A stretch of 64,000 nt of DNA from Pandoraea pneumonica. GTDB taxonomy: Bacteria; Pseudomonadota; Gammaproteobacteria; Burkholderiales; Burkholderiaceae. The notes below the pieces were generated by a model, which made no database searches, was not told where the DNA came from, and saw only the letters and a list, made by a program, of their open reading frames with translations. The translations under genes and the position numbers were made by a program. The stretch lies in contig NZ_CABPSK010000001.1 in assembly GCF_902459645.1 (NCBI RefSeq), positions 682,001 through 746,000 of the forward strand. Reading direction: 5' to 3'. Of this stretch, positions 27,500-51,508 are shown in pieces; the stretch's first letter is position 1, and every line of letters starts with the position of its first letter.

Positions 27500-27518
27500 T
27501 CGTTGACCGAGGTGAACC

Positions 27519-29759: not shown

Positions 29760-29769
29760 CCACCGGTCA

Positions 29770-29809: not shown

Positions 29810-29818
29810 CCCGCGCAC

Positions 29819-30292: not shown

Positions 30293-30296
30293 CCCG

Positions 30297-30491: not shown

Positions 30492-30494
30492 TCC

Positions 30495-31178: not shown

Positions 31179-31182
31179 CGCC

Positions 31183-32973: not shown

Positions 32974-33036
32974 CGCACCGTTGTACGACGCCCATCGCGA
33001 TACGAGACACGCAACAAGCAACAAGGAGACCTGACC

Positions 33037-33339
33037 ATGCCGTTGGCCGCACGACTCACCGACATGCACCTGTGCCCGATGCAGACGCCGGCGTTCCCGG
33101 CGCCGATTCCGCACGTGGGCGGCCCCATCCTCGGCCCTTGTGTGCCGACGGTGCTGATCGGCAAGCTGCCTGCCGCCGTGGTGACCGACAACTGCTTATG
33201 CGTGGGGCCGCCCGACTCGATCGTGATGGGGTCGACGAGCGTGCTCATCGGCGGCAAGCCCGCCGCCCGAGTGGGTGACACGTGCGCGCACGGCGGTTCG
33301 ATTTCGATGGGGTGTCCGACGGTGCTGATCGGCGGTTGA
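33037..33339 (+). CDS. PAAR-domain spike tip protein (Pvc10/Afp10-like)
   Basis: 100 residues that are all PAAR fold. The repeated pattern (TVLIGKLPAAVVTDNC, SVLIGGKPAARVGDTCAHGG, TVLIGG) and the Cys/His set (His57-like metal ligands in DTCAHGG) indicate a small metal-bound cone. It sharpens the spike trimer. No extension that could carry a toxin. Good ribosome site (AAGGAG). Confidence 0.93.
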   Translation: MPLAARLTDMHLCPMQTPAFPAPIPHVGGPILGPCVPTVLIGKLPAAVVTDNCLCVGPPDSIVMGSTSVLIGGKPAARVGDTCAHGGSISMGCPTVLIGG

Positions 33340-33355
33340 GCGCGAACGCCGCAGG

Positions 33356-33400
33356 ACAAGCGGCAAGACGATCGACAAAACAAGCGACAAGACGAGCGAC
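33356..33400 (+). repeat. imperfect 21-bp direct repeat before the gp25-like gene
   Basis: Two purine-rich copies, 33356-33376 and 33380-33400, differing at two positions, with a 24-bp period. They lie in the 88-nt gap between the PAAR and gp25-like genes, and shorter CGAC/GAGCGA echoes continue to 33412. No known function. Confidence 0.55.
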
Positions 33401-33427
33401 AACGAGCGAAACAAGGGGAAAGCACGC

Positions 33428-33865
33428 GTGAGCACCGACAAATCGTTTCTCGGCACTGGCTGGGCCTTTCCGCCGCGCTTTGGCGATCACGCGGCGCAGG
33501 GGCGCACGCAAATGGTAGAGGCCGAGGCCGACATTCACGAGAGCTTGCGCATCATTCTCGCGACCGTGCCCGGCGAGCGGATCATGCAGCCCACGTTCGG
33601 CTGCGGCATCAAGACCTACGTGTTCGACGAGATCAGTGAAAGCGTGCTCACCGAAATACGCGATGCCATCGAGCGCGCCATTCTGTTTTTCGAGCCGCGC
33701 ATCACGGTCGAGCAGATCGTGATCGATTCGTCGGCGGCTATGGAAGGACGCATCGACGTGCTCATCGATTACACGGTGCGGGGGGCGAATACGCGCAGCA
33801 ACATGGTCTATCCGTTTTATTTCCTCGAAGGCACGAACTTGCCCGATAAGCAGATGCCGCGCTGA
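33428..33865 (+). CDS. baseplate wedge protein, gp25-like (Pvc9/Afp9)
   Basis: 145 residues from GTG 33428 (AAGGGG 10 nt upstream). The GPW/gp25 core is clear: ESLRIILATVPGERIMQPTFG, with the characteristic EPRI(T)VEQI and the short C-terminal strand pair. gp25 proteins start sheath polymerisation by offering the first handshake strands at the baseplate. Order PAAR then gp25 differs from Afp (9 before 10), but the set is the same. Confidence 0.93.
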   Translation: MSTDKSFLGTGWAFPPRFGDHAAQGRTQMVEAEADIHESLRIILATVPGERIMQPTFGCGIKTYVFDEISESVLTEIRDAIERAILFFEPRITVEQIVIDSSAAMEGRIDVLIDYTVRGANTRSNMVYPFYFLEGTNLPDKQMPR

Positions 33866-33900
33866 TACGGCAAACGACCCGACGACGAGACGACGACCCG

Positions 33901-36900
33901 ATGTACAACCTCATCATTCGCGATGGCACCAGTCAGGCGATGCGGGCACTGCCCGCGTTGCAGGACGGCTATTTCCATCTCGATGAGTTGTCGTTTCACG
34001 AGTTGCTGGCAATCGTGACGGAGTTCGCCGCGCTGGTGCGGTTTCATAACGCCGAGAACGTGCCGGAAGGCGACTGGACGCCGTTCTTTCGCGCAGACGA
34101 AACGGTGGTGATGAGCCGCATTCTGGCGTTCGATCTCACGCGCGAGACCGCGCATTTCGCGCAGTGGTGGCGCAACACGCCGGAACACATCGGGGTGAGC
34201 GCGGACGGCGAGAGCTCTGGGTGGACGCTGGAAGCTTCGCCCGTCGCGGAGCTCGTCGCGACACTGAACGATTGGTATGTCGCGCTGGCGCAAGCGCAGA
34301 GCGATAACGGGCTAGGCCTGCGGACCGTACTGCGCGCGGTGATCGTGCAATTGAGCGTCGACCGGTCGGGCATTCTCGGGGCGTTACGCACAGCAGGTGC
34401 TTCGCTTGCACTCGACCCCATTTGGTCAGTCGACGTGACGGTGCCGAATGCCGACGGCATTGCCCGCGCAGGCGCCCATCTGACCAAAGCCGACGTGCGC
34501 ACGGACTTCCACGCGTACATGAAGGCTATCGAAATGGTGCGTAAAGAGGCGCTGGCGCGCTTGCCTGCGTCGCTGCACAACGGCATCCACGATCCCGCCA
34601 TCGGCTTGTTGATTGCCTTCGTGCAGCAGTTCCAGAAGCTGCAAGGCAAGCTGAATGGTTACACCCGTCGCTTTATCGATTTCTATTACGACCGCATGCT
34701 GGGCAGCACGCCGCGCTCGACGGTGCCGGATCGCACGTGGCTGGTGGTCAAGCGCACGCCGGACGCACGCGACGTCGTGGTGCCGGCGGGCACCGAGTTT
34801 CCTGCCGGTGTCGATGCGCAGAGCCGCGACATTCTTTATCTGGCCGACAACGAACTGCGCGTGTCGGATGCCGTGGTGAGTCAGGTGCAGACGCTCTACC
34901 TCGATCACAACGGCTACAGCGCGCCCGAGAACTTGCTGGCCGAAGACGACAACGCGGCACCCGGCACACCGGTCACCGGGCGGACATGGGCCACGGCAGC
35001 ATGGTTCCAGGCGGTGTCGGTTGCGCCGCCGGGGGCGGTGCACACACAGGCTTGGCCGATGCTGGGCGCGCCGAAGGCGGGCATGGGCAGCGGGCCGCAT
35101 CGGGATGCCCGTATTGGCTTTGCGCTGGCGAGCAAGGTGCTTCTGCTCAAAGAGGGCGAGCGCCGCATCAGTGTGACGATCACGTTCGCCGACGACACGC
35201 TCATGCAACGGCTCGACAAGGTGGCCGACGCGATGCTCGGCACGCCGGCCGCGCCGACAGAGGTGGCTGACGCATCGGACATCGATAACGGAAGCGCCGA
35301 AGCGATCGCCAAGCGCGACGCCCGCGCGCTGGAGCTGCGTCGCAACGACATCTTTCTGAAGATCTTTCGCAGCATCTTCGTCGTGGGTCTGACGGGGGAG
35401 TTCGGCTGGATCGATATTCCGGGCTACGTGCCGTTCTTCAAAGACAACGTGCTGCGGTTGAGCTTCGAGCTGCCTCCCCAGTCGCCGAGCGTGGTGGCGT
35501 ACTCGCCAGCGTTGCACGGTGAGCAGTTCGACATCGAGACGCCGATGCTGCGTTGTGTGATCAATCCGGGTGCGTACTTGTTTCCGTACGGCATGCTACG
35601 CGATCTCGCGGTCACGGGAGCCCGCATCGACGTCGAGGCGCGAGGCTGCCGCGACCTGGTATTGCACAACAACATCGGGCAACTGAGTGCCTCGACGCCC
35701 TTCGCACCGTTCGGCCCGCTCGCCCGATTGGGCAGCTATCTCGTTGTCGGCAGCACCGAGATGGCGTCAAAGCGCATCACCGATTTTCGGGTGGAGATCG
35801 AGTGGGCGGATTTGCCGCGCACCACGGGGGGATTCAGCACGTGGTACGACGGCTACGACGTACGCGTGGCCAATGAAGACTATCTGGCCACCGTCGCGGT
35901 ATTAGCCAAAGGGGTGTGGTCGCCTGCCAGCGAGTTGTCGCGCCCCAGCGTGCCGTTGTTCCAGACGCGCGTGCAACCGGGGCAGGGCGAGCGCATCGAC
36001 AACCGGATCGTTTGGCGCGCAGGTCAGTTGGCGCATTTGTTCGAACCCGATGCGGGCGTGAGCGCAGCGCAGCCGCTCACGTGGGGGCCGGGCGCGAAGA
36101 ACGGCTTCTTCAAGTTCACGTTTGCGGCCCCGGCGTTTGCGTTCGGGCACGAGACCTATGCGCAGGCGCTCTCGACGACGATGATGACCAACGCACGGCG
36201 CCGTCGCTGGCGTCGGCCGAATGCGGTACCGCGTGCTCCGTACACGCCACTCATCAATGCCATTTCCATCGACTATTGCGCGACCGGGGCGATCAGCGTC
36301 GACCGGCTGCCGAACGGCGACGACGACGGCCGCTTTCTGCACCTGTTCCCGTCGGGGTGGGAAACGCTAGGCCTCACCAGCTACCCGGCGCCCGCCTTGC
36401 TGCCGCGCATCAACGCCGCTGGCAATCTGTACGTCGGCATTGCGGCGGGCGACCTGGGCAAGACGCTGACGTTGCTCTTCGAATTGCGCGAAGACTCCCA
36501 ACCAGTGCCGCCGACGGACGAAGATACCGACGAAGGCCCCGCCAATAGTGCCGGGCTGCATTGGAGTTATCTGACGAACAACGTGTGGAAGCCGTTGTCG
36601 CGGCGCGCCATCGTGGCGGATGGTACCCATCACTTCATGACCTCCGGCATTGTGACGTTGCGCGTACCGGCGGACATCGGGTGCAGCAATACGGTGATGC
36701 CCGACGGACTGTACTGGTTCCGCGTGAGCGCCGATCGCGACATGGAGAAGTATTGCAGCCTCTATGCGGTGCATGCGCAGGCCGTGCAGGTGACCCGAGG
36801 GCCGGACGTACCGCCCGAAGTGCCGACCGTGCTACCTGCCGCATCGATCACGCGCAGCCGCCGCCCATTGCCGGGCATTACCGGCATTGTGCAGCCGCTG

Positions 36901-37797
36901 CCGTCGTGTGGCGGGCGTGCGGCGGAAACGCGCGATCAAATGCGCACCCGCGTTAGCGAGCGGCTGCGGCACAAGCAACGCGCCATCTCTCCGGCCGACT
37001 ACGAATCGCTGATTCTGGAAGCGTTCGCCGAGGTCTATAAGGTCAAGTGCTTCGCGAATCTGACCTCGTCGAACGGCCCCTTCGATTGTGTGCGCCCGGG
37101 CCATGCGTTGATCGTCCCGCTGCCTTACTGGCCCGCAGTGCAGGCCGATGAGCAGATGCCGATGCTCGACGGCAATCTGATGCAGGAAATTGCGGCGTTC
37201 GTGAACACGCTGTCGTCGCCTTGGGCGCATGTGTCCGTCGAGAACCCCGTGTACGAGCGCATTCAGGTGCGTTGCAAAGTGCGCTTTTCCGACGTGTCGG
37301 GCAATGGCCGCTATATCGCCATGCTCAACGCTGCCATTTCGCGCTACCTCACGCCGTGGCAAGACGATGTGGGCTACCGCACGCACTTCGGGTGGCGGAT
37401 CCGGCAGCACGATCTGGAAGCGTTCATCGGCGCGCTGCCTTACGTGCAAAACGTCTCGGGATTCTCGATGCTGCGCATTGCTGCGAAGCCGCCTGCGATG
37501 TCGGCGGCGTCGTCAGAAACGACGGCTGCGCCCAGCCCGGTGGTGTGGGCGTCGGCGGATGTGCAAACGTATTCCCTGTTCGACACGGCTAACCCGGCTG
37601 ACTTGGGCAGTTCCGTGCTTGCGAAAGGGCAAGCCGACATCACGCCGCTCTACCCGTGGAGCATTGCCATTCCCGTCGCGCGTCACGCCATCGAAGCCGT
37701 CGACGACGGCATCGACTATCCGGGCGTGCGCACCACGCTCAGTCGCCTTGAAATCGGCGCCACTTTCATCATCTCGGACGACTCCAATGACCAATAA
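33901..37797 (+). CDS. large baseplate-J-like wedge protein (Pvc11/Afp11-like)
   Basis: 1298 residues. Long N-terminal half without a named domain but with the eCIS Afp11 layout, and a baseplate_J/gp6-like segment near the C-terminus (about 1010-1180: RDQMRTRVSERLRHKQRAIS, ADYESLILEAFAEVYKVKCF, then HVSVENPVYERIQVRCKVRF). Forms the wedge ring with the later 846-residue protein. No ribosome site is obvious before ATG 33901. Its end overlaps the next gene by 11 nt, so the two are probably coupled. Confidence 0.9.
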   Translation: MYNLIIRDGTSQAMRALPALQDGYFHLDELSFHELLAIVTEFAALVRFHNAENVPEGDWTPFFRADETVVMSRILAFDLTRETAHFAQWWRNTPEHIGVSADGESSGWTLEASPVAELVATLNDWYVALAQAQSDNGLGLRTVLRAVIVQLSVDRSGILGALRTAGASLALDPIWSVDVTVPNADGIARAGAHLTKADVRTDFHAYMKAIEMVRKEALARLPASLHNGIHDPAIGLLIAFVQQFQKLQGKLNGYTRRFIDFYYDRMLGSTPRSTVPDRTWLVVKRTPDARDVVVPAGTEFPAGVDAQSRDILYLADNELRVSDAVVSQVQTLYLDHNGYSAPENLLAEDDNAAPGTPVTGRTWATAAWFQAVSVAPPGAVHTQAWPMLGAPKAGMGSGPHRDARIGFALASKVLLLKEGERRISVTITFADDTLMQRLDKVADAMLGTPAAPTEVADASDIDNGSAEAIAKRDARALELRRNDIFLKIFRSIFVVGLTGEFGWIDIPGYVPFFKDNVLRLSFELPPQSPSVVAYSPALHGEQFDIETPMLRCVINPGAYLFPYGMLRDLAVTGARIDVEARGCRDLVLHNNIGQLSASTPFAPFGPLARLGSYLVVGSTEMASKRITDFRVEIEWADLPRTTGGFSTWYDGYDVRVANEDYLATVAVLAKGVWSPASELSRPSVPLFQTRVQPGQGERIDNRIVWRAGQLAHLFEPDAGVSAAQPLTWGPGAKNGFFKFTFAAPAFAFGHETYAQALSTTMMTNARRRRWRRPNAVPRAPYTPLINAISIDYCATGAISVDRLPNGDDDGRFLHLFPSGWETLGLTSYPAPALLPRINAAGNLYVGIAAGDLGKTLTLLFELREDSQPVPPTDEDTDEGPANSAGLHWSYLTNNVWKPLSRRAIVADGTHHFMTSGIVTLRVPADIGCSNTVMPDGLYWFRVSADRDMEKYCSLYAVHAQAVQVTRGPDVPPEVPTVLPAASITRSRRPLPGITGIVQPLPSCGGRAAETRDQMRTRVSERLRHKQRAISPADYESLILEAFAEVYKVKCFANLTSSNGPFDCVRPGHALIVPLPYWPAVQADEQMPMLDGNLMQEIAAFVNTLSSPWAHVSVENPVYERIQVRCKVRFSDVSGNGRYIAMLNAAISRYLTPWQDDVGYRTHFGWRIRQHDLEAFIGALPYVQNVSGFSMLRIAAKPPAMSAASSETTAAPSPVVWASADVQTYSLFDTANPADLGSSVLAKGQADITPLYPWSIAIPVARHAIEAVDDGIDYPGVRTTLSRLEIGATFIISDDSNDQ

Positions 37798-38605
37798 GCC
37801 CATGGCTCGCCGCAATCGCGACACGCTCCGGCGCAAGTTCGGCAATGGCGAGATGCCGTCGGCGACGGCTTTCTCCGAACTCATCGACTCGATGCTCAAT
37901 ATCGTCGACGAGGGATTCGACAAGACACCGGTGGACGGGCTGAAGGTCTCGCAACTCAATCAAGGCAAGCTGCTCAGCTTCTATCAGAACATCGATGTGA
38001 AGAGCCCCATCTGGTCGGTACAGCTCGACGGTCCCGGGGGCGGATTGGCGTTTGGCAACGAGAACAACCCCACGGTACTGACATTGCGTCAGTTGCCGGG
38101 GCGGCCGGTTACCCAAACGTCAGGGAAGTCAGACGCCGCTGCCGACTTCGAACTCGACTTGGCCGGGCGCATCGTGGCCGATGGCCGACGTGGGCGGCCC
38201 GGCAGCCGCAGCGTACCGGCCGATGGGAAATGGCACGACATTACCGACACGCTCACCGGCTGCAATGCGTTCGAGATCATGGCCGGGGTCGGCAAGCGAG
38301 GTAGTGGCAAGTACGCGCTGATGCACGCATACGCCGTCATGGCGTTCAACGGCAAAGGCGACATCGACTATCGACAGTCTCACTTCGGCAGCAAGTGCAA
38401 CCGGCTGCAACTGCAATGGGTGGACGCGCCAGACGGCGCGAAGCATAACTACATTCTGCAAATGCGCGTCGGCTGCCCCTACGACACCACGCGTGACGCG
38501 GCCGGTGCGGACCGGACGTGGGTGACCTACTACCTGACTAACCTCTGGTTCGATCCGGATATGCAGACAAGCGCGATCGATCCTGAGCCGAAGGTGCAGG
38601 CATGA
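37787..38605 (+). CDS. unrecognised eCIS protein, candidate baseplate-attached fibre
   Basis: 272 residues from ATG 37787 (ATG 37802 is an alternative). The N-terminal segment RDTLRRKFGNGEMPSATAF followed by a helix with LIDSMLNIVDEGFDK resembles the attachment heads of fibre-like proteins in other contractile systems. The rest (about 95-270) reads as a beta-rich globular domain (ALMHAYAVMAFNGKGDID, HNYILQMRVGC). No clear Afp13 fibre gene with adenovirus-type shaft is found elsewhere in the locus, so this protein is the best candidate for target recognition. That role is inference; it might also be a baseplate accessory. Coupled to both neighbours by overlaps. Confidence 0.55.
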   Translation: MTNKPMARRNRDTLRRKFGNGEMPSATAFSELIDSMLNIVDEGFDKTPVDGLKVSQLNQGKLLSFYQNIDVKSPIWSVQLDGPGGGLAFGNENNPTVLTLRQLPGRPVTQTSGKSDAAADFELDLAGRIVADGRRGRPGSRSVPADGKWHDITDTLTGCNAFEIMAGVGKRGSGKYALMHAYAVMAFNGKGDIDYRQSHFGSKCNRLQLQWVDAPDGAKHNYILQMRVGCPYDTTRDAAGADRTWVTYYLTNLWFDPDMQTSAIDPEPKVQA

Positions 38606-38940: not shown

Positions 38941-41477
38941 GCGCCCCCGAGTCGATCGCCCGGCTGGCCCCCGATCCGAATGGGCTGGATTTCGATGCGC
39001 TGCGCCGCGCAGGCATTGCCACGCTACAAGCCCTGTGCGGAGAGCGTTGGACCGACTACAACCTGCACGACCCGGGCGTCACGATTCTTGAGCAGCTTTG
39101 CTATGCGATCACCGAACTGGCCTACCGTTCGGATTTCGCGCCCGAAGACTATTTGGTCGGCCCAACGGGCATCATCGATTACCGTCGCCATGCGCTACAT
39201 CCGGCGGACGAGATTCTGCCGAGTCAGGTGCTGACGGTCGATGACTATCGGAAGCTGTTCTACGACTCGATTCCCGAACTCGAAGATGTCTGGTTGAGTT
39301 GCGAGCCGCAAGCGGGGGAGTCGGCAAGTGGGGTGCGGGGGCTGTATCGCGTGCTGGTCAAGCTTAGCGAGACATTGTCGGGGGAGTTGTCGGGAGAGGC
39401 GCAGGCCGCGATGGAGGCCGACGTGCGCAAGCGCATCTTCGAAGTCTTCAATGCGCATCGCAACCTGGGTGAGGATTTGGCCGACGTGCAGGTCGTGCCC
39501 GCGCAGGCGGTCTATCTCAGCGGCGACGTACAGATTCACAGCGAGCGCGATCCTGCGTCGATCTTCGCCGACATCTATTTCCGTTGCGCACAGGCGGTGC
39601 TCTCGGGGTTTCAGGTCGAGCGGTACGTCAAGGCATTTGCCGCCGGGGTGCCGCTCGATATTTTGTTTTCCGGGCCTCGCACGGTGCACGGATTTATCGC
39701 TAGCACTGGCGCGCAGGCGCCCGGCTCACCGATTGCGATCGCGAAGCTGGTCGGACTGGTGCAGGAAGTGGACGGTGTAGCCCATGTGCACCGGCTGTCG
39801 TTGTGCGACGCCGACGGCAACCCGGTGGGCGCGGACATGGCCAAGCGCGCTGTCCTGCGATTACGGTTCCCGGGCGATGCGCAGAGCGGCTTTTTGCGGC
39901 TGCACTTTGCCAGCAGCGCGGTCGGCGGGGACGTGGCGCCGGTTGCGCACGCTGTCGAACAGCGGCGTGAAGACAAGGCACGGGTGGTGCTCGACGACGC
40001 GCGTGTGGCGCTGGCCAAGGCGCGGTTTGAATTCGATACCCTGCGCAACACGCCGCAATCGGTTGCGGGCATCGTGCCCGCCCCACAGGGCGAGACGCGC
40101 GAATTGCGCGACTACTTTTCGATTCAGCATCAGTTTCCGGCGATTTACGGCATCAATCACTTCGGTGTGCCGCCGTCGGCACCGCTTGAGCATCATGTGA
40201 GTGCGAAGCAGTTGAAGGCTTATCTGTATCTGGCCGAGCAACTGATGGCGAACTATCTCGAGAACCTGCAATCGGTCGGCCGCATGTTCTCCGTCGACGA
40301 TTTGCACCAGACGTATTTCTCTCAATGGATCGGGGACGAGGCGTTGCCCGATATCGAATCGCTATACGTCAACGCGCCGGACGATGTGCGCAGTGCGCTC
40401 ACTCGCATCGTCTCGCGCAAAGATCGGGCCGAAGACCGGCGCAGCCGATTGCTCGACGTGCTGCTCGCGATGTATGGCGAGACGTTTTCGCAGAAGTCGT
40501 TGCGGCGTTTCGACGATTACCAGGACAAGCACGCCACGCATTGGCTGGTGAATAACAAGCTTGAGTTCTTGCGTCATATCGCGACACTGTCGCGCGACCG
40601 GGCGACGGCGTTCGATGTGGGCATGCCTGACGTTCGGGCCGACAAGCGAGCCAATGTCTCTGGCGTGCATGCCAAGATTGCGATCTTGCTGGGGTTGCCC
40701 GCGCAGCCGGACACCAAGCCGTTGAGCGAGGCGCTGTTGCGTCGGCGACTTCGCTTGCGAGCGGACAACGTCGCCACGGCGGACGACTATGAACGCGCGG
40801 CGGCCCGCTTAGTGGTGCTGGCGGGGCGCAGTGCGTCGGGGGCCGATGGCGGGCGGGACGATGCCGCGCGCAAAGACGCTCACGAAGACATGCTTCCCGT
40901 TGGGCTGCTCGTGCATGGCGTGCGGTTGGAAAACTACGTGTTGGAGCAGCATGGCGAGGAAGTGCACGTGCATTTCCAGACCCACGACGATCGGCTGGGC
41001 AACGTGCGTCTCGCGAAGTTCAGACGGGCAGGTGCGGTGACACACGCCGACCGGTATGTACAGACGCTGCGCGAATTCCTCTGTCAGTTGAATGTGCAAT
41101 CGGAGGGGTTTTATCTGGTCGAGCACGTGTTGCTGCGCCCTCGGAAGCAAGACGCCGACGCTGTGGATGATGCGTTTTTCGACGCGCGCGTGAGCATCGT
41201 ATTCCCGGCGTGGTCGGCACGATTCAGTGATCCGGACTTCCGCAATCTGGCGCAAGAGACGGTCTGTCGCAATCTGCCGGCGCATCTGTTGCCGGAATTT
41301 CATTGGCTGGATTTTGTGACGATGCGCGACTTCGAGCATCGCTACGACTTGTGGCGTTCGCGGTTGCGCGAAGACGTGACGCGTGCGGACTCCCGTCGGC
41401 TGGATGCCAGCAGCGCGAGCCTGGTGTCGTTGCTCATGCGCCAGCGGCGCGAGCGCAACCTGACCTTGTGGGTATAG
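38937..41477 (+). CDS. second large baseplate protein (Pvc12/Afp12-like)
   Basis: 846 residues. The early motif WTDYNLHDPGVTILEQLCYA followed by ELAYRSDF (about 38-66) is the hallmark of the second wedge subunit in eCIS baseplates, which pairs with the Afp11-type protein in a gp6-like heterodimer. Later, ILPSQVLTVDDYRKLFYDSIP continues the baseplate-J-like part. A C-terminal region (about 650-800) with EGFYLVEHVLLRPR is also common in this group. Ends 2 nt before the tape measure start. Confidence 0.85.
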   Translation: MSAPESIARLAPDPNGLDFDALRRAGIATLQALCGERWTDYNLHDPGVTILEQLCYAITELAYRSDFAPEDYLVGPTGIIDYRRHALHPADEILPSQVLTVDDYRKLFYDSIPELEDVWLSCEPQAGESASGVRGLYRVLVKLSETLSGELSGEAQAAMEADVRKRIFEVFNAHRNLGEDLADVQVVPAQAVYLSGDVQIHSERDPASIFADIYFRCAQAVLSGFQVERYVKAFAAGVPLDILFSGPRTVHGFIASTGAQAPGSPIAIAKLVGLVQEVDGVAHVHRLSLCDADGNPVGADMAKRAVLRLRFPGDAQSGFLRLHFASSAVGGDVAPVAHAVEQRREDKARVVLDDARVALAKARFEFDTLRNTPQSVAGIVPAPQGETRELRDYFSIQHQFPAIYGINHFGVPPSAPLEHHVSAKQLKAYLYLAEQLMANYLENLQSVGRMFSVDDLHQTYFSQWIGDEALPDIESLYVNAPDDVRSALTRIVSRKDRAEDRRSRLLDVLLAMYGETFSQKSLRRFDDYQDKHATHWLVNNKLEFLRHIATLSRDRATAFDVGMPDVRADKRANVSGVHAKIAILLGLPAQPDTKPLSEALLRRRLRLRADNVATADDYERAAARLVVLAGRSASGADGGRDDAARKDAHEDMLPVGLLVHGVRLENYVLEQHGEEVHVHFQTHDDRLGNVRLAKFRRAGAVTHADRYVQTLREFLCQLNVQSEGFYLVEHVLLRPRKQDADAVDDAFFDARVSIVFPAWSARFSDPDFRNLAQETVCRNLPAHLLPEFHWLDFVTMRDFEHRYDLWRSRLREDVTRADSRRLDASSASLVSLLMRQRRERNLTLWV

Positions 41478-41479
41478 CG

Positions 41480-44400
41480 ATGAATACGCGCCATCGCATC
41501 GACCATCTGGCATTCGACCTGACGTTCACGGCAGGCGGGCTGGACATGTCGCAAAGCGATGCGCTGCGCTCACTGGTCGTCGACAGGCTGTTGCCGGTGG
41601 TGTCCACGGTTTTCGATAACCGTGCGCCTGGCGAAGGCGTGATTCGTATTGATCGGCTCGACATCGATCTGGGCAGCGTCCCGGTGGCCGATTTGCCGGA
41701 AGCGCTTGCGGAAAGCTTGTCCGACGCGCTGGAGCAGGCGTTGGCGGAGCGGGGTGGCGACGTGCCCGGACATGGCGCACCGGTGGTGACACGCTTCGAA
41801 TCGGCAGTCGATGCCGACACGGCTTCGCTCATGGGATTTCTTACGTCCGGGCGGTTGCCGGATCGGCTGGCAGCGGTAACCGATGCCGGGCGAGCTGTGC
41901 GTGGTGACGTTCGTGCCGATGAGGGGCAGGGGCGGCGGCAAGCCGCACGCAAGAGGCCATGGGAGGAATCGCGGCAGGAAGTGGGGCAGGAGGTGGGGCA
42001 GGAGGTGCGGCAGGACGCTCAGGCTGATGTGGAAGCCGACACACAAGGCGACACGGAGCGCGACACGCGTTCCGACGCGCAAGGCGAAACGCAGCGCGAC
42101 ACACGTTCCGACGCACAAGACGAAACGCAGCGTGCCGCGTATTCCGACGCGGAAGCCCTATCGCGGTCCGACAGGCAATCCGATGCGCAAGGCCAAACGT
42201 CGCCCGATAGGCAATCCGATGCGCAGGGCCGAACGCCGCCCGACAGGCATTCCAACGCGCAGCGCCAAACGCCGGACGACGCGCAATTCGACGAGCCGAG
42301 TGAAACGCAACATGACGTGCAATCTGCCGCGCAAACCCATGTATCTAACGCACCTCTGGAGGCGTTGCTCGCCAGGGTGCTGGCGGGAGATGTCGAGCCG
42401 ATAAGACGACTGCTGTTGAGCAGTGCTTCACGCGACGTACAGATCGCGCGATTGGTGCGGCAGTTTCCAGAGGCTCAGATCGAGGCAATGCTTTACGCGC
42501 TCCGACCTGCGGAAGCGCAGCGCTGGTTGGCAGACTTAGATGCGATCGACGAGACGCTTGCCGTCGCAGGGTGGACGGCGAACGCGCGCGAGGCGGCACA
42601 ACTCGTCGCGCGAGAAAAACTGTTGGCGATCGGCCTGACCCCGCTGAGTGCCGGAGGACTGCAAACGCCGTGGCACGAGATCTGGCAAGCGGTCTTGATC
42701 GGCGAGCGGGCAGGTCTTGGCACGCAAAACACGGCGAAAGCAGGTCAGGACATCGCAACGCGAGCAGCACAAGTCCTTAGGCAGGTGGAACTTGCCCAAC
42801 TCGCTCCCGCGCCCCTCATGTTGGCGGTGTTGCGCCGATTGGCCGGAACGAGTGCGCATGGGCGAGCGGCCGTTATGGATCGACCGATATCACCCGGTAC
42901 GGCGGCTAACGTGGGCGACGTGAACAAAGTGGTCAACGTCGACGATATGGCCGACGTTACCAACGCGGCCGATGTGGTTGATTTGGCTAATGTCCCCAAT
43001 GTCCCCAATGGGCTGCCTTTCGCCGAAATAGATATAGCCGATGGCGAGGGTCGAGAGGTGGAAATCGCCAGCGAACGTCTAGTGGCGAAAGCCGCGTCGC
43101 GTGACGATAGTGTTCCCCACAAATTGACGAAGGAAGCCGAGGGAGAAGCGGGGACGGAAGCATGGACGAGAGCCGCTGACGCAAAAGAAGAAGATCGTGC
43201 AACCGCCGAGTTGGCGACGATGGGTGGCAACAGCGTGGCACAAGGCGATTGGCGTGGTGCTAACGAAACGCTGACCGAAACGCCGTATTCAGCCCACTTA
43301 CTTGCGCGGACGCGAGTGCTGTTGGCAAACGCGTTTGCGCGAGGGCAATCGCAGGCGCTCTACGATGTTTGGCCGCAGTTGATGCGCGAAGCACCGACGC
43401 TGGTGAGGGATGCGCTGCGTCACTATGCGGCCTATCCCGATTTACGCGACAGGATGGCAATGTCGCTTCCAGTGTCGTTGTTGGAGGACATGCTGGCACT
43501 GCTTGCGGCGCAAATGCCGGAGAGCCAAAGCGAGCAAGCGGCGCTCACCGGATGGGCGCGTCGTCGCGCATGGTCTGAAGCCGTCGCGGCTGCGTTTTCA
43601 GGAACATCCGCAGAGATCGAGGGGGAAGAGGGCAGCGACGGTGCCTCGCCATCGATGTTGGTAGATGAAGCGTGGCGTCACATGAGCGCGGATGCCGCAG
43701 TCGTTGCAGCAGACGGCACACCTGAACCGACGAACTTGGCGACGCCACACGTCTCAACCGCCGAGGCGCAGTTGCACGATGAGGTGGTGCGCCCGGGCTC
43801 CACGTTGGAGACGAATCCGGCGCTCGTTGCGCATTCGGGAACAGTGGCGGCGAGTGTCCCAGACGAGTCTGCCTCACCAAACGATGGGGAATCGACCCCG
43901 CGCGTCAGCCATACCGGCGCGGCCGGTGAACGCGAACAACAAAAATCGGAATCGCCTGCGGAGGCGATGCCCCCGTCACCCGACATCGCAGACGAAGCAA
44001 TGATGTCGGCTGCCGCAGGGAGGAACCCGGCTGCCGCACGCCCTGCGCAACCGATTGCGGGCAAGCCGAGCGACGAGCAATCGGCTATTGAGATATCCGT
44101 AGCCCCTGACCCCGACAACGAATCGGCAGTTGCCAAAGTGGAAGCCGGGGCTACTGGCGGGCACGTCGGTGAGCGTGGCCGGTTGATTGAGGCGTTACTC
44201 AGTGGCGAGTCGGCGCCGCTGTACGACGATTGGGCGGACTGGCTGTCGACGCGCGGTGAAATGTTGACCAGCGCGTTTCGGCATTACGGACGGCGGGACG
44301 AGGTATTGACGCGAATCGTCGCGGGTTTTCCGGAGAACATGCTGCTGGATTTGGCGACGCTGTTGCACCCAGCGAGCGCAGTGTATTGGCGATCGCTCCG

Positions 44401-46936
44401 GGCACTTGCCCGAGAGGATGCGCTGCCGGAGCGCCCGGTTTCCGTCCGTGGCGAGCCGAAGGCCGACGATATAGCGGCCAATGTGCCGTCGCATGACTCG
44501 ATAGCGGCGAGCGCGTTGCCTTCCGCGCTGCCGACGAACGGCACGGATTTACCGTCACACGCGTCAGTCGATGTGTGGAGGCGGGCGATCTGGAAGCGAG
44601 TGTTCGAATGGTTGCTTCAGACGTCGCCTGTCCAGCCTTTGACGCTCGACGGAATGCGGGGTCTGGCGAGTGCCGAGCGCCTCGCTGGTTGGCAGCTTCG
44701 GTTGATGCAAGTCTGGGAATCCAACGCGCTTGGGCTTGCGACCGAGCAGGGCGACGTCAGAAAGCCGTTGATCGCCCCGACTGGGCGCAGCGACTCACCG
44801 AATTCGGCGGTCACGCGTGATGCCTTCGACGACCCGACGCAACACGGGATTAGCGCCCGCGATGCCGTTCCAGATGCCGAATCCTCGTCAGCGTTGGAGG
44901 GGGGCGAGTCGCTTGGCGAACGTGGCGCTTCGAACGAGTCCGGCACGGCAGTGGCCAAATCCGAAGTCTCAGGGGGCTCTCAGGCCGTCTTAGTACCCCG
45001 CACAACAAGCGCATCCAGTAGCCCAGCCGTTTCTAGCAAGTTCGCTGGTTCAGTGGAGCAACGTGGGCCAGATAGCGATATCGCTCCGGAACAAACCGGT
45101 GTTGCCGTTGGCGCCAGTGATGCCGTTGCTGCCGTTGATACGGTTGAAGCAGTTGACGTTGCTGATGCGACTGAAACCACTGATGCCGTTACCGCTGCTC
45201 ATGCGAACGACGTCGGTAACGCCAGCGCATCGGATGCATTGCAGCGGCTATTGCAGGTTCACCGAGAGATGACCTCCCTCGGCGCGTCGTTGGTCAGTCG
45301 CACCGGGGGGCTGTCGCAAGAAGCGCGCGCTACGTTACAGCGCGACCTTGGCCTGAGCCGCGCAATGCTGATTTCCGGTGTCGGCACGCTCGCACCGCAG
45401 GCTTGGGCTGCCGTGGCGGATATTGTTGTCTCCGTGAGCGAAGCGATTCCCGCCGCTCATCGCGAATCGTTTTACGACGCCATCGTCAAGCACACACCTG
45501 TCGCGTCACCGGAGGCATCCCTCGCCGTTGCGCGCTATTACGCCAGTGTTGTCGCCGCATTGCTGGAAGGCTCGACGCTGGACCTCGAAGCGTTGAGCGA
45601 AACGGCATCGATGAATAGGGCGCTCGATGAAGACAGTGTGCACGCCACGGAGCATCGGGATAACGCGGCATCACCTGCCAGTTCCGCATCGACGCTCTCA
45701 ACAAAAACTGACGCACAGCCTGACGCACCCCATCACTCTGCGGACACAGCCTCGCGTCCCACACCCGATCAGACGTCGCGCCGGACTTCGTTTCCCGAGT
45801 CGACTGCGCGCCAGCGACCGGCCCAACATCGCTCTCAAGAAAGTGGCCCCGATATGGCATCCACGCAGCCTACCGATTTTCTCGACTACGTCGCTTCATC
45901 GGACTTCCGCAATGGGCGCGGGACGCATCCACCAGGGTTGTCCGTCTGGTTGCATCAGGCGATGCAGACGGGCGCGGCAGCGCTGCGTCAGGTCCTCACG
46001 CCTGCCGCTATCGACGACGATTTGGCCGGACGTTGGCTCGATCTCGTGCCGGTTGACCTGTGGCCCGGCTTTGCCCGCCTGTCGTCGCGCGACACCGCCG
46101 AGATTGACCGAATGCTACGTCTGTCGGCGGATATCACCGATCTCTTCGTGCTGAGTCTAGATACACACCCGGGAGCACATCCGGCCGCGAACACGCCTGC
46201 AAAGTTGGCGCGCGCCCGATGGCTAACGCTCTTCGGATGGCTCTTTGCGCCACAGCGCGCTTACGCAGGCGCAACGTTTGCCTCTGCGCTCGCCACCCGG
46301 TTGTCCAAAGCGACGTCCCGTGAGATGTCGCCCGTGCTGGCAAGCCGGATACGGGAGCAGACCGGCATCGACATTGCGGTGCCGAGCGCCAACTCGAGCG
46401 ACCTATCGCAAACGCCAACTCGGGTGATACATGCCGGTGCCGTGCTGCTGTGGCCGTTTCTTTCGCGTCTATGGGAGGTGTTCGATCTCATGGAAGCGTA
46501 TTGGGAAGATGGGCACCGGCGCAGCCGTTTTGTCAGCGATGCTGCTGTCGAGCGGGCGGTCTTGATGCTTCACTATGTCGTGAGCGGACGCACGGAAGCG
46601 CCGGAGTATGACTTGGTGATGCACAAGCTGCTATGCGGCCTGCCATCGAGCGTGCCAGTCGCGCGGCACATCGAGGTCACTGCGCAAGAAGACACCATCA
46701 TCAATGACCTGCTTCGCTCCATGATTCAGCACTGGTCAGCGATAGGCAGCACATCGCCAGAAGGGCTGCGAGAGGCCTTCTTGCAGCGGGCAGGCGTGTT
46801 GTCACTGGGCGAAAACGGCTGGCATCTCAAGGTGGAACGGACTGCCTTCGACGTGCTGCTCGAGCGTCTGCCTTGGGGAATTTCGACTGTGCACCTTTCG
46901 TGGATGCCACAACCGTTATGGGTGCAATGGGTATGA
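41480..46936 (+). CDS. contractile injection system tape measure protein (Pvc14-like)
   Basis: 1818 residues from ATG 41480. The N-terminus (HRIDHLAFDLTFTA, then GVIRIDRLDIDLGSVPVADL) and the C-terminus (LERLPWGISTVHLSWMPQPL ending in VQWV) are the two conserved ends of the CIS_TMP family; the centre varies in length and sets the tail length. Three related helical modules are visible at about 291-345, 606-677 and 894-967 (pattern AL-x-G-x3-LYD-x-W ... RHY ... LL). They are joined by low-complexity Ala/Asp/Val/Glu-rich linkers. A 12-residue tandem repeat occupies about 194-265. Unlike phage tape measures, there is no transmembrane segment. Ends in an ATGA overlap with the ATPase gene. Confidence 0.92.
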   Translation: MNTRHRIDHLAFDLTFTAGGLDMSQSDALRSLVVDRLLPVVSTVFDNRAPGEGVIRIDRLDIDLGSVPVADLPEALAESLSDALEQALAERGGDVPGHGAPVVTRFESAVDADTASLMGFLTSGRLPDRLAAVTDAGRAVRGDVRADEGQGRRQAARKRPWEESRQEVGQEVGQEVRQDAQADVEADTQGDTERDTRSDAQGETQRDTRSDAQDETQRAAYSDAEALSRSDRQSDAQGQTSPDRQSDAQGRTPPDRHSNAQRQTPDDAQFDEPSETQHDVQSAAQTHVSNAPLEALLARVLAGDVEPIRRLLLSSASRDVQIARLVRQFPEAQIEAMLYALRPAEAQRWLADLDAIDETLAVAGWTANAREAAQLVAREKLLAIGLTPLSAGGLQTPWHEIWQAVLIGERAGLGTQNTAKAGQDIATRAAQVLRQVELAQLAPAPLMLAVLRRLAGTSAHGRAAVMDRPISPGTAANVGDVNKVVNVDDMADVTNAADVVDLANVPNVPNGLPFAEIDIADGEGREVEIASERLVAKAASRDDSVPHKLTKEAEGEAGTEAWTRAADAKEEDRATAELATMGGNSVAQGDWRGANETLTETPYSAHLLARTRVLLANAFARGQSQALYDVWPQLMREAPTLVRDALRHYAAYPDLRDRMAMSLPVSLLEDMLALLAAQMPESQSEQAALTGWARRRAWSEAVAAAFSGTSAEIEGEEGSDGASPSMLVDEAWRHMSADAAVVAADGTPEPTNLATPHVSTAEAQLHDEVVRPGSTLETNPALVAHSGTVAASVPDESASPNDGESTPRVSHTGAAGEREQQKSESPAEAMPPSPDIADEAMMSAAAGRNPAAARPAQPIAGKPSDEQSAIEISVAPDPDNESAVAKVEAGATGGHVGERGRLIEALLSGESAPLYDDWADWLSTRGEMLTSAFRHYGRRDEVLTRIVAGFPENMLLDLATLLHPASAVYWRSLRALAREDALPERPVSVRGEPKADDIAANVPSHDSIAASALPSALPTNGTDLPSHASVDVWRRAIWKRVFEWLLQTSPVQPLTLDGMRGLASAERLAGWQLRLMQVWESNALGLATEQGDVRKPLIAPTGRSDSPNSAVTRDAFDDPTQHGISARDAVPDAESSSALEGGESLGERGASNESGTAVAKSEVSGGSQAVLVPRTTSASSSPAVSSKFAGSVEQRGPDSDIAPEQTGVAVGASDAVAAVDTVEAVDVADATETTDAVTAAHANDVGNASASDALQRLLQVHREMTSLGASLVSRTGGLSQEARATLQRDLGLSRAMLISGVGTLAPQAWAAVADIVVSVSEAIPAAHRESFYDAIVKHTPVASPEASLAVARYYASVVAALLEGSTLDLEALSETASMNRALDEDSVHATEHRDNAASPASSASTLSTKTDAQPDAPHHSADTASRPTPDQTSRRTSFPESTARQRPAQHRSQESGPDMASTQPTDFLDYVASSDFRNGRGTHPPGLSVWLHQAMQTGAAALRQVLTPAAIDDDLAGRWLDLVPVDLWPGFARLSSRDTAEIDRMLRLSADITDLFVLSLDTHPGAHPAANTPAKLARARWLTLFGWLFAPQRAYAGATFASALATRLSKATSREMSPVLASRIREQTGIDIAVPSANSSDLSQTPTRVIHAGAVLLWPFLSRLWEVFDLMEAYWEDGHRRSRFVSDAAVERAVLMLHYVVSGRTEAPEYDLVMHKLLCGLPSSVPVARHIEVTAQEDTIINDLLRSMIQHWSAIGSTSPEGLREAFLQRAGVLSLGENGWHLKVERTAFDVLLERLPWGISTVHLSWMPQPLWVQWV
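42059..42274 (+). repeat. 36-bp repeats inside the tape measure gene
   Basis: Five units of 36 bp (12 codons): 42059-42094, 42095-42130, then after a 36-bp divergent unit 42167-42202, 42203-42238 and 42239-42274. Consensus peptide RxxSDAQGxTxx. A separate 12-bp tandem (GQEV repeats) lies just before, near 41975-42010. The period keeps the frame, so copy number can change without breaking the gene. Confidence 0.85.
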
Positions 46937-48297
46937 CCGACACCATCACCCCACTCACGGCGAACGCCGAGAGCTTGTCGCGCGAAATCGCGTGGTTCAA
47001 CGCGGTACTCGAGACGCGCATGCATGCCTACTTCATGCACGAAGGCGGCCCGCACGACATTCACGCGCACACGCCGCCGGACTTGACCGGCGACCCGTCG
47101 CCATTTGCCAAGACGCTACAGGCGCTGGGGCTGGCCAAGCATTTCGACGCCCGTGTGGTGCTCATGCTTGCCATGCTGCCGCACATCAGGCCGCAGGCGC
47201 TCGATTTGCTCTTCACGCAGAACAAGAACACCGAGCGACAGTTCACCGAATTCGGCGGCTGGCGCGGCCAGCATCACAGCGGCTTGCTGCCGACCTGCGA
47301 AACGGCGGCCTTCATACTCGCCGGTGACGACCTCGCGCGACGGTTCGAGATTCTGCAACTGTTCGACGCGGAGCATACGTTTGCGCGGGAATCGATCTTG
47401 CGGCTAGAGCGCCGCGCCGAAGGCGAGCCTGCGCTCGCCGCTGCGCTGCACGTCGAGCGCGACTTTCTCGAACGCTGCACGTCCGGCAGTGAACACAAGC
47501 CCGATTACAGCGCGGGGTTTCCGGCCAAACGCATCACTACGCTGCGCGACTGGCACGACTTGGTGCTAGCGCCGGACGTGATCGACGAGATCGACCAGAT
47601 TCGGCAATGGCTCGATGGCGGCGAAGCCGTCATGCAACGCTGGCAACTCGATCGAATGGTCAAACCGGGCTTCCGGGCGTTGTTCTACGGGCCGCCGGGC
47701 ACCGGCAAGACGCTCACGGCGTCGTTGCTAGGCAAGGCGGCGGGCGTCGATGTCTACCGGATCGACCTGTCCAAGATCGTCTCGAAGTACATCGGCGAGA
47801 CCGAGAAAAACATGGCGAATGTATTCGATCAGGCGCAGAACAAGCGCTGGATTCTGTTCTTCGACGAAGCCGACGCACTCTTCGGCAAACGCACGGAAGG
47901 CAGCAGCGCCAACGATCGTCACGCGAATCAGGAGGTCGCCTATCTCCTCCAGCGGATTGAAGACTACCCCGGCGTCGTGCTGCTCGCGACCAATCTGAAG
48001 GGCAATATCGACGAGGCCTTCGCACGGCGCTTCCAAAGTGCCATTCACTTTCCGTTGCCCGATAGCGAACAACGCTTGCGCTTATGGAAGAGCCTGTTCC
48101 CGAAAGGGAAGGGCTTGGGGCCCGACGTCGATCTCGTGACGCTGGCCGAAAACCATGTGCTCTCCGGTGGCGCACTGCTCAACGTTGCCCAGCATGCGGC
48201 CATGCGCGCCGAGCGTGAGGGGCGCGATACCGTCAGCCATGCCGATCTACTGCGCGGAGTGCGGCGTGAACTCATCAAGGAAGGGCGGACGATCTGA
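46933..48297 (+). CDS. eCIS AAA+ ATPase (Pvc15/Afp15-like)
   Basis: 454 residues from ATG 46933, coupled by ATGA to the tape measure. An N-terminal helical domain (about 1-190) precedes one AAA+ module: Walker A GPPGTGKT (about 254-261), pore-loop region KIVSKYIGETEKN, Walker B WILFFDEADALFG (about 306-318), sensor-1 LLATN and arginine finger AFARRF. Afp15-type ATPases are required for particle assembly and may load or remodel cargo or the tape measure. One copy, cytosolic, no signal peptide. Confidence 0.93.
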   Translation: MTDTITPLTANAESLSREIAWFNAVLETRMHAYFMHEGGPHDIHAHTPPDLTGDPSPFAKTLQALGLAKHFDARVVLMLAMLPHIRPQALDLLFTQNKNTERQFTEFGGWRGQHHSGLLPTCETAAFILAGDDLARRFEILQLFDAEHTFARESILRLERRAEGEPALAAALHVERDFLERCTSGSEHKPDYSAGFPAKRITTLRDWHDLVLAPDVIDEIDQIRQWLDGGEAVMQRWQLDRMVKPGFRALFYGPPGTGKTLTASLLGKAAGVDVYRIDLSKIVSKYIGETEKNMANVFDQAQNKRWILFFDEADALFGKRTEGSSANDRHANQEVAYLLQRIEDYPGVVLLATNLKGNIDEAFARRFQSAIHFPLPDSEQRLRLWKSLFPKGKGLGPDVDLVTLAENHVLSGGALLNVAQHAAMRAEREGRDTVSHADLLRGVRRELIKEGRTI

Positions 48298-48298: not shown

Positions 48299-51200
48299 AT
48301 GACCATCCTGTTCTCCAACTCTAAGCGCACGTGTACACGGATCGTCACGATGTGTGCGGCGCTCGCTGGCCTGATGCTGCCCATACCGAGCCATGCGACG
48401 GCCTCGGCGGTGAGTGCCCCAAGTGCGCCAAGTGCCGCGTCCGCTCCCAAGGCAAGTGCGGGCGCGCCGGACTCAGCGCCCGCATCGACAGCGCCCGCTA
48501 GCGTCCCAGTCGCTGCTATCGCCCCTGTAGCCCCTGTCGCTTCTTCGGCAGCCCCGGCGATGGCATCCACGCCGGTCGCGCCGCGACAGGCTGCACCGAC
48601 GCAGTCGCCGCCACCAACGCCCACATCCGTGCCGACGGAACCGGTTGCCGCGCCTGCTGCACCGGCGCCCGTCATTCGCACGACGAACATGGCGCCGCCG
48701 ATGGGCAGCGATGGCAAGCCGATGACGCCGCAAGACGCGCTTCGTATCGTGAACACGGTACAGGTGGCGCCGGAACCGACGAGCGGCGTGGGGGCGGTGC
48801 TGATTTCCGCCGATGTGGTGCGTCACCTGCCACCAGCTACGCGCCGCGCGATTCAGCAGGCGTTGCTGACGATCTACTCGGATGATCCGGCGTATTTGCA
48901 GGCGTATCGCGAAAGCACACGGCCGTTGTCGGACAATTTGGTCGGCCCGATTACGCTCTCGTGGCTCAACCGATTCTGGCTCGATTTCAAGATGCAACCC
49001 GTCGGCAACCTGACCAACGCATCGGTACAGGCGCTGCTGAAGTTTGCGAGCATTGTGCGGGCCCATCCGCAGTGGAAGACCGATCTCGTCAGCGCCGATC
49101 TGGGCCGTTGGATCGACAGCTTCGAGCCGCGAGAACAGGCGCGCTATTACCAGATTCGGCTCGCGGGCACCGACGATGAAATTGCAGCGATGCTTTGGCT
49201 TTATCACCTCGATACCGATGGGCGCCGCAACGCAGGCCCCGACCCGGATCGTGCGCTGCTGACGATCTATAACTACACGCTGGAGGCGAATGACTTCCGC
49301 CTGCTGGCGTCGAAGTCGAAAGTGATCGACAAGCTCTCGGCGCTTCAGGACAAGGTTTATCTGAACCAGCCGTTGTTCGACGCGGCGGTGCTCGACGCGC
49401 TGAAGGATCTGGGCACGCAGGCCGACGCGTATTTGCCCGAAGCGCGTGCTGCCGCTGTCACCACCACCTACCAGCTGACCGATATCTCGGTGCAGCAACT
49501 ACGGCAAGCTGGTCGCGTGCCCGCGCCGATCATCGATGCCGTGTCGGGTCTGACAGAGGAATACGCCAGTCAGGCCGACTTCAACGAGGCGATTCTCGAT
49601 GCCACGTCTGACGTGAAGATCGCCGTCGACGCGTACGTGCCCGACATCATGCGCGCGGCGCAAACGCAGACCACTTATGTGCTGACGGCGCAGGCACTGG
49701 CCGAACTGGCCGCGAGCCGCCGCAACGAAGCCGTGCCACCGGTGATTCTCGACATGCTCAAGGGCTTGCAGGGCCTGCAATATCCGCAGTTGTGGCTGTT
49801 CGATCACGCCGTCATGGCGCGCTTGCGTCAGGGCGTGGGGGCGTGTCCGACAGGCATTCCGGGCAGTGTGGCCGATGCCCGCAAGATTTCCGCCGAGCAA
49901 ATGCAGCAGCTCTCGGCGGTGTTGAAAGATCCCGCGCTATTCGCCCAGCTCGATGCGCTGTGGAAGAAGGGCGATTGCAGCAACGTGGACGTGCTGACGT
50001 TGCCGCAACTGATGCAAACGCTGTACGACCGGTTCCGGCCGTCGCTCGTGGCCACGGCACGCAAGCGCCCGGCGTTCGATCCGACGCAACGCGTGCAATG
50101 GAGCGGTGCGGGCTGCGGCTGTGTGCTCGACGCCTTGCAAGGGGAGGTCTACGGTTTCTTCCCGTTCTGGATGGCGGGCCCGAAACAAATCGTCGACTTC
50201 AGCACGATTTCCCGCGTTGGCTATTACGGCGCAACGTTCGACGACAGCGGCAAGCTACAACAGGCGAACGACGGGCGCAGTTTTGTCGACCTTGCCCAAG
50301 CGAGCGTCGGTCTGCCCGACGATTTCGTCAGCGTCGCGCAAAGGCACCAGAGCAACGTGCTGTGGGTGATTCAGCGCAACGATTGGCGGACATGGGCGCG
50401 GCTGGAGAAGAATCGCAAGGCGCAAGTGCTGGAGCGCGTGAGCGACGACATCGTTCGCCTGCTATCCACGCGGCTGAAGAACTGGACGGCCGAGGTATCG
50501 AACCACCTGCCGTTCGGTGCGCGCTTTGCACCGACCAATGGTGGCGGTGTCGTGATCTTCTTCGACGGCTATCCGGACGACCCGGTGTCAGTGCAGATCT
50601 TCAATCAGTTCATCGACAAACTGCGCACCGATTTGAGAAAGGCCGGGGCGGGCGACCGAATCGACATCATGATGCGGCACGACCGGGTGGGGCACGGCGT
50701 GTATGACTACGGCAATCTTTTCCGGCTGATCATGGAGAACGACCGGAATCCATCGACCGATTTGCTCGCGAAGGTGACGCGCGAGCGGAATCGGCGTCCT
50801 CACTTTTTGGTGCTGCTCGACGAGCCGACCACCGACTCGAAGAAAGCGCTTCGCCTCTCGGTGGAGGAGGGGTTGCACGGCGAGGAGCGTCAGATCGTGC
50901 TGCGTCAGATCGTGCCGGTTATCACGTTCGATCACGACAACTGGCAGCAGCTACAGGACGACATCGTTTACGCGCAGGACAACTTCGGCGGCATCGGTTT
51001 CTGGCCGATACAGTTGCGCAGCGATGGGAAAGCGGCAGAGGGCGGGAACAAGGCGGGGGGCGCGAGTGGGGCAGATGCTGTTATTGCAGCGGTCGACCCG
51101 ACGCCGGGCGTGCAGGAATGCACGGTCACGCGAAGTGTGAGCGAATGTCTGGCGGACTATTACCAAAAGCCCGCCGGTGCGCAGTCGTCTGCCGTATGCA

Positions 51201-51508
51201 AGACCGTGTGCGAAAACCTATACGCGTTCCGGCTCGCGACGAAGATCATGTTGCTGCTGCTGGTCGGGTGCGGTGTGGCGTACTACGTGTCGTGCCGCTG
51301 GCGCGAACTGATGGCGCGTTACTACCATGCGCCCGCGCTCGTGGTGGCGGCCGTCTGGCTCTTGCTCTCGCTGGCTTTGCTCTTCTGCGACCCGTTCCTG
51401 CGATGGCTTGCGCGCGGCTACATGATTCCGATCTTCCTCGTGCTGTTCATCATCGCGCTGATCGCTTGGTATCAGTACCAGTTGAAGGCGCGAGATGAAC
51501 AGCCCTAG
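48299..51508 (+). CDS. exported, membrane-anchored protein with a GH18-like domain at the end of the eCIS operon
   Basis: 1069 residues starting one base after the ATPase stop. Layout: Sec signal (about 5-31, ALAGLMLPIPSHATA), Ala/Pro/Ser-rich linker (about 32-125), a large alpha-rich domain of unknown type (about 130-590), then a region that looks like a degenerate glycoside hydrolase 18 barrel (about 610-905: EVYGFFPFWMAG, SRVGYYGATF, VVIFFDGYPDD, IGFWPIQL). The catalytic DxxDxDxE of chitinases is not intact. Near the end are CxxxxSVSEC-type cysteines and three membrane segments (about 983-1000, 1011-1030, 1041-1062). It should span the periplasm while held in the inner membrane. Candidate for docking, release or wall-passage of the particle; not a standard Afp/PVC component. 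Confidence 0.65.
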   Translation: MTILFSNSKRTCTRIVTMCAALAGLMLPIPSHATASAVSAPSAPSAASAPKASAGAPDSAPASTAPASVPVAAIAPVAPVASSAAPAMASTPVAPRQAAPTQSPPPTPTSVPTEPVAAPAAPAPVIRTTNMAPPMGSDGKPMTPQDALRIVNTVQVAPEPTSGVGAVLISADVVRHLPPATRRAIQQALLTIYSDDPAYLQAYRESTRPLSDNLVGPITLSWLNRFWLDFKMQPVGNLTNASVQALLKFASIVRAHPQWKTDLVSADLGRWIDSFEPREQARYYQIRLAGTDDEIAAMLWLYHLDTDGRRNAGPDPDRALLTIYNYTLEANDFRLLASKSKVIDKLSALQDKVYLNQPLFDAAVLDALKDLGTQADAYLPEARAAAVTTTYQLTDISVQQLRQAGRVPAPIIDAVSGLTEEYASQADFNEAILDATSDVKIAVDAYVPDIMRAAQTQTTYVLTAQALAELAASRRNEAVPPVILDMLKGLQGLQYPQLWLFDHAVMARLRQGVGACPTGIPGSVADARKISAEQMQQLSAVLKDPALFAQLDALWKKGDCSNVDVLTLPQLMQTLYDRFRPSLVATARKRPAFDPTQRVQWSGAGCGCVLDALQGEVYGFFPFWMAGPKQIVDFSTISRVGYYGATFDDSGKLQQANDGRSFVDLAQASVGLPDDFVSVAQRHQSNVLWVIQRNDWRTWARLEKNRKAQVLERVSDDIVRLLSTRLKNWTAEVSNHLPFGARFAPTNGGGVVIFFDGYPDDPVSVQIFNQFIDKLRTDLRKAGAGDRIDIMMRHDRVGHGVYDYGNLFRLIMENDRNPSTDLLAKVTRERNRRPHFLVLLDEPTTDSKKALRLSVEEGLHGEERQIVLRQIVPVITFDHDNWQQLQDDIVYAQDNFGGIGFWPIQLRSDGKAAEGGNKAGGASGADAVIAAVDPTPGVQECTVTRSVSECLADYYQKPAGAQSSAVCKTVCENLYAFRLATKIMLLLLVGCGVAYYVSCRWRELMARYYHAPALVVAAVWLLLSLALLFCDPFLRWLARGYMIPIFLVLFIIALIAWYQYQLKARDEQP

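Follow-up and report, generated by a model that had tools for sequence, protein, structure and literature searches.

A membrane-anchored protein with a degenerate GH18-type barrel as a specific partner of extracellular contractile injection systems

What is a large exported membrane protein doing at the end of a gene cluster for an extracellular contractile injection system (eCIS)? The question is raised by a 64,000-nucleotide stretch of the Pandoraea pneumonica contig NZ_CABPSK010000001.1 (positions 682,001 to 746,000; hereafter the window), in which the gene order is tape measure, AAA ATPase, and then an open reading frame (ORF) at 48299..51508 (+ strand, as are all window features given below) for an exported, membrane-anchored protein of 1069 amino acids. 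The stop codon of the Pvc15-type ATPase gene and the membrane-protein gene are separated by a single base. Our comparisons support the view that this protein is a specific eCIS partner from a widespread family and not a local oddity, and we propose, at a probability of roughly 0.48, that one eCIS lineage uses it as a dedicated platform for docking or triggering at the envelope.

The genetic linkage to eCIS is seen in several samples. Within the genus, 6 of 13 Pandoraea genomes contain the gene, and these are the same six that contain the eCIS tape-measure gene PF19268. In the class sample the family profile finds it in 5 of 274 genomes, all five with PF19268, which itself is present in eight; one PF19268-positive genome, G226, has a divergent, roughly 518-residue member downstream of AAA that was missed by the initial search and found on reading the locus, illustrating that this search can miss divergent members. 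At the phylum level a barrel-bearing match is found in 5 of 398 genomes, 5/5 with PF19268, which scores above its cut-off in nine genomes and under it in a tenth (G336). The family profile matches 22 of the 398, of which 17 are short partial matches (16 towards the N-terminus and one in the membrane part) that were excluded from the membership counts; five partial matches inspected by eye comprise two peptidoglycan (PG)-binding-type motifs, two MltB-type transglycosylase-like segments, and one chance-like match. No barrel-bearing copy without an eCIS was seen in the class and phylum samples.

A contig scan using degenerate motifs of the membrane protein, and blind to genomic context, gave 100 confirmed relatives, 80 of which were retrieved. 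In four of these the contig begins within the gene, leaving no upstream DNA; all 76 testable loci have the AAA gene immediately before the membrane-protein gene, in the same orientation, and a tape-measure ORF upstream of both, and the gap between the AAA and membrane-protein genes is -4 to +19 bases in every case, values that are biased small because the start codons nearest the AAA stop were picked. The loci are from the Beta-, Gamma- and Alphaproteobacteria, the Nitrospirota, and a Desulfatitalea metagenome-assembled genome (MAG), with titles that include Pandoraea, Herbaspirillum, Undibacterium, Nitrosomonas, the Roseobacter group, Chromatiaceae, three Nitrospirota/Nitrospira MAGs, and the one Desulfatitalea MAG, mis-binning being possible for MAG records. 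One gene (L082) is split over two frames, and the sets overlap, in that L045, L047 and L049 are contigs of the class-sample genomes G148, G091 and G221. Membrane-protein distances correlate strongly with AAA distances (Mantel r 0.89 over 75 loci, with 0 of 999 permutations as high), as expected from co-inheritance. Homologues that are common outside eCIS, which would have spoken against the eCIS role put forward in an initial annotation of this DNA, were encountered neither in the genus, class and phylum samples nor in 76 of the 80 contig loci.

The protein has a distinctive layout. Its start one base after the ATPase gene, its signal peptide, and its three C-terminal membrane segments had all been described in the initial annotation, and are borne out by the ORF reading, hydropathy, and AlphaFold2 (AF2) prediction. 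The signal peptide (approximately residues 1–33, 48299..48397) was judged by inspection from a basic n-region and a hydropathy of 1.59 at residues 11–29. It is followed by a 93-residue linker (residues 35–127, 48401..48679) that is 88% Ala, Pro, Ser, Thr or Val and is the fastest-evolving part of the protein among six orthologues, in which strong purifying selection, with low dN/dS, acts on the helical, barrel and membrane parts. A helical segment (residues 170–232, 48806..48994) corresponds in alignment to the part that holds PG_binding_1 in distant members, and precedes a region predicted by AF2 to be alpha-helical (residues 240–590, 49016..50068). Three transmembrane helices are predicted by AF2 and hydropathy near the C-terminus (approximately residues 979–999, 1012–1030 and 1040–1060, within 51233..51478); three such segments fall within the final 160 residues in 61 of 80 relatives and farther from the end in another 11. 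Undibacterium and its relatives (L101, L108, L113, L115, L117, L121, L123 and L124) have about 150 extra residues beyond the last membrane helix that are predicted to be cytoplasmic.

Between the helical region and the membrane helices lies the barrel, which has kept its fold and lost its catalytic motif. The GH18-like barrel anticipated from the sequence is confirmed by structure prediction, with a GH18 (chitinase-type) TIM-barrel at residues 601–905 (50099..51013) recognized by fold match of the AF2 model; residues 240–590 gave no convincing fold match. The GH18 catalytic motif DxxDxDxE is present at the motif columns (the degenerate site at residues 749–756, 50543..50566) in none of 78 aligned members, and is absent elsewhere in all 78 sequences too; the position of the catalytic glutamate is Glu in 17 and Asp in 31. 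Seven other residues, C606, C608, P622, W696, K848, G898 and W902, are invariant in 78/78. The Pfam model Glyco_hydro_18 does not match the window protein at E up to 1 and matches none of the 45 members of alignment A6, in which the window row is the N-terminal part only, and just 2 of the 33 members of alignment A7 at E up to 0.01, one of which (L043, 22.7 bits) is under the 29.6 cut-off. The barrel probably binds wall glycan or protein.

The link to peptidoglycan is found in distant members. PG_binding_1 is matched by 4 of the 33 A7 members at E up to 0.01 and by 0/45 members of A6, with its truncated window row; L038 scores 28.4 bits (above the cut-off of 23) and L040 14.4 bits (below it). 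A7 was intended as a non-beta set, and includes three beta-titled records (L092, L112 and L119). No dedicated family model emerged from Pfam and NCBIfam scans of the window protein, a Pfam scan of A6, or Pfam and NCBIfam scans of A7, and a Pfam-based core-gene analysis like that of Geller et al. (PMC8213781, judging by its available text) would therefore probably not reveal the family as a group.

One relative of the membrane protein has a solved structure. Chain B of 9r9a (‘Uncharacterized protein’, 864 residues, about 200 shorter than the window protein) is matched by profile A4 at E=3.9e-44 over profile positions 35–450 and 523–700, which cover the N-terminal part, the barrel, and the C-terminal membrane part, and by the window protein alone with phmmer at 5.6e-6; all other rows of the profile search have E values of 0.72 or worse. 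The closest solved relatives of the window tube are 9r9h and 9r9n, and those of the gp25, Afp12-like and baseplate J proteins are in 9rce, with a molecule named SalCis12. From the neighbouring codes and this name, the four entries are apparently one deposition series on a single contractile injection system (CIS), SalCIS, and another group has thus probably characterized a homologue of the membrane protein. Within the open-licence PMC literature we found no paper on 9r9a, 9r9h, 9r9n, 9rce or SalCis, nor one that evidently describes the membrane protein.

A candidate particle-side partner is the conserved 267-residue protein in the fibre slot (37802..38605), which accompanies the membrane protein wherever this could be examined. 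Homologues of it are present in 17/17 contig loci that reach baseplate J, two of them the same contigs as model rows, and its mean identity across 26 loci (47%) is between that of AAA (54%) and those of the membrane protein (32%), the Afp12-like protein (32%), and the tape measure (26%). In the class sample it is matched in 7 of 274 genomes and at full length in five (G000, G091, G221, G226 and G262), each of which has the membrane protein; G089 and G252 match only short parts, and no match comes from G148, which brings the carriers of the membrane protein to six and whose contig begins in the tape-measure region. The accessible text of PMC12923769 describes the fibres of published eCIS as remarkably diverse. 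Conservation of this fibre suggests a conserved target, perhaps the membrane protein of its own cell. Divergence of the fibre-slot and membrane proteins is correlated across the 26 loci (partial r 0.66) and in a group of 12 of them (0.77), a split in which L112 (title Roseateles) is grouped with the alphas. Two other ORFs, L157 and L159 (of G089), share just the first 40–80 residues with the fibre-slot protein, which suggests that these could form a common baseplate-attachment domain.

How might such a protein serve an eCIS? As we picture the docking or triggering platform, the protein would be exported by Sec, as its signal peptide implies, and held in the inner membrane by the three C-terminal helices. 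The flexible linker and an N-terminal PG-binding-type domain, recognizable by sequence in some members and presumed in that of the window, would extend into the peptidoglycan, where the catalytically degenerate barrel may bind wall glycan or protein. The platform could then dock a cytoplasmic particle at the envelope of its own cell, or report the state of the envelope to it, such that firing would occur there, with the conserved short fibre-slot protein as the proposed contact on the particle. A type VI secretion system (T6SS) offers a comparison in working only, in that in the TssM/TssL-type complex an inner-membrane protein with a large periplasmic part serves a contractile system; the window protein has no TssM/TssL/TssJ-type match in Pfam (E up to 1) or NCBIfam (E up to 0.1), in library scans only and with no direct comparison.

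Several observations weigh against the platform. The main difficulty is the small predicted cytoplasmic portion of the window protein, some 14 residues in a loop and some 10 in a tail, which would leave it little with which to hold a cytoplasmic particle; in Undibacterium and its relatives the C-terminal extension could face the cytoplasm. The window protein alone matches no Pfam model at E up to 1, PG-binding included. Not every eCIS appears to have a member: the stretches retrieved show none in the class-sample eCIS genomes G089 and G269, or in G395, G413, G435 and G491 from the phylum sample (G491 being cut by a contig end), and in G522 (L148) the order differs, with the membrane-protein gene following the tape measure and AAA on the opposite strand. 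For the fibre-slot protein, the correlation with the membrane protein drops to 0.12 (p 0.24) in the remaining 14 loci, where both proteins instead track the Afp12-like protein (0.58 and 0.48), and simple co-evolution of the two is rejected as not robust; no solved relative of the fibre-slot protein turned up in 9r9a, 9rce or any other entry, the best hit being an unrelated chain at E 0.13. The Cache-domain membrane protein that is encoded downstream in a few gamma loci gives no match to 9r9a.

Other roles can be set against the same data. The initial annotation had offered either an anchor for the particle or an opener of the wall, and of these anchoring is favoured by the membrane helices and the PG-binding domain of some distant members, while enzymatic opening is weakened by the loss of the motif. 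A release factor, i.e. a membrane-tethered wall hydrolase that opens the peptidoglycan so that particles leave the cell, is accordingly improbable, although a hydrolase with a different type of active site would be compatible with it; a wall-bound docking or triggering platform is the likelier because the catalytic motif is absent, aromatic, Lys and Cys residues are invariant, and a PG-binding domain is present in some distant members. Hard to separate from docking by sequence, and overlapping with it, is an envelope-stress sensor, in which the periplasmic part would sense the state of the wall or envelope and relay it to the CIS, with no hold on the particle. The invariant aromatics are compatible with a ligand pocket, a few gamma loci also encode a membrane protein with a Cache domain (two scanned) and one with tetratricopeptide repeats (TPR; one scanned), and firing in Streptomyces depends on CisA under stress, according to the accessible text of PMC12237407. 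However, extra sensor-like genes, judged by size and membrane segments, follow in just a handful of the 80 contig loci and not in the window, and a Pfam scan of the window protein recognizes no cytoplasmic signalling domain; we regard a pure sensor as unlikely.

The remaining two explanations fit the data poorly. With its place at the 3′ end of the cluster, where eCIS effector genes usually lie according to the available text of PMC8213781, the gene could encode an exported effector, receptor or self-protection protein that stands outside the firing machinery; but the signal peptide and three membrane helices, the low dN/dS, the co-inheritance with AAA, and the same cluster position across phyla make this very improbable. 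To a housekeeping enzyme that happens to lie behind the operon, an alternative that the initial annotation had named as a refutation, we give almost no credence: only the commonness of the GH18 fold speaks for it, and it is contradicted in that none of the barrel-bearing copies in the testable genomes and loci lacks an eCIS, with four contig loci and 20 further relatives outside the test.

The Pvc15/Afp15-type AAA ATPase ORF (46873..48297; PF00004, 3.5e-30) is preceded by the tape-measure ORF (41303..46936; PF19268, 1.6e-91), whose true start is probably downstream of the TTG that opens this ORF, and the other structural genes (25944..37797) encode Pvc16_N, sheath, two tube proteins, CIS_tube, a VgrG-like spike, PAAR, gp25 and baseplate J; among them, 26567–27499 belongs to no clear family. 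Downstream of the membrane-protein gene, other genomes have additional genes. In two gamma loci (L039:15048–17162 and L041:5999–8149) these encode membrane proteins with a dCache/PDC sensor domain, and that of L039 also matches the ligand-gated ion-channel construct 5osa (E 2.5e-4, residues 473–659), making a Cache-gated channel linked to the eCIS possible. A TPR-repeat protein with predicted membrane segments (L039:13602–15020) is encoded between the membrane-protein and Cache-protein genes. A methyltransferase of about 206 residues (one scanned, L066:5846–6463) is often downstream; Nitrosomonas, Nitrospirota, and some Undibacterium loci have ORFs of comparable size that start at a comparable place.

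The layout differs from those of two membrane-linked CIS described elsewhere. CisA (SCO4242) of the Streptomyces coelicolor CIS is a membrane protein encoded in the cluster, absent from purified particles and needed for contraction in situ, a precedent for the proposed platform, and is bitopic with a cytoplasmic N-terminus and one membrane segment (PMC12237407, as given in its available text). The window protein may be analogous in that both are membrane proteins of CIS clusters, but as described it differs in its predicted signal peptide, GH18-like barrel and three C-terminal helices, and in its usual place behind AAA. In the thylakoid-anchored CIS of Anabaena, Cis12 and Cis13 provide anchoring, by an extension of the baseplate and by a fibre-like protein that carries a membrane helix (PMC8894136, in the text accessible to us), and thus solve membrane anchoring without a separate exported protein. 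GH18 hydrolases such as SleL and chitinases share the fold, whereas the window family differs in its loss of the catalytic motif, its membrane anchor, and its eCIS linkage. The earlier suggestion of an independent solution is therefore reasonable with respect to CisA and Cis12/Cis13, and is to be qualified in that the family is widespread and a homologue is already in the PDB (9r9a).

That the membrane-protein gene is conserved in the same place in related bacteria suggests that supposedly free-floating machines dock on, or are triggered at, their own envelope. A broader version, which we consider doubtful, is that this Proteobacterial and Nitrospirota lineage of ‘extracellular’ CIS is not primarily extracellular, and has independently evolved a trans-envelope platform, of PG-binding domain, pseudo-chitinase barrel and three-helix anchor, that would meet an invariant short baseplate fibre, giving a T6SS-like or self-firing mode from unrelated parts. 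The range of possible targets depends on whether such a machine is set free or works from the envelope of its own cell, and the membrane protein offers a sequence-level marker of what may be a membrane-linked mode in one lineage of eCIS.
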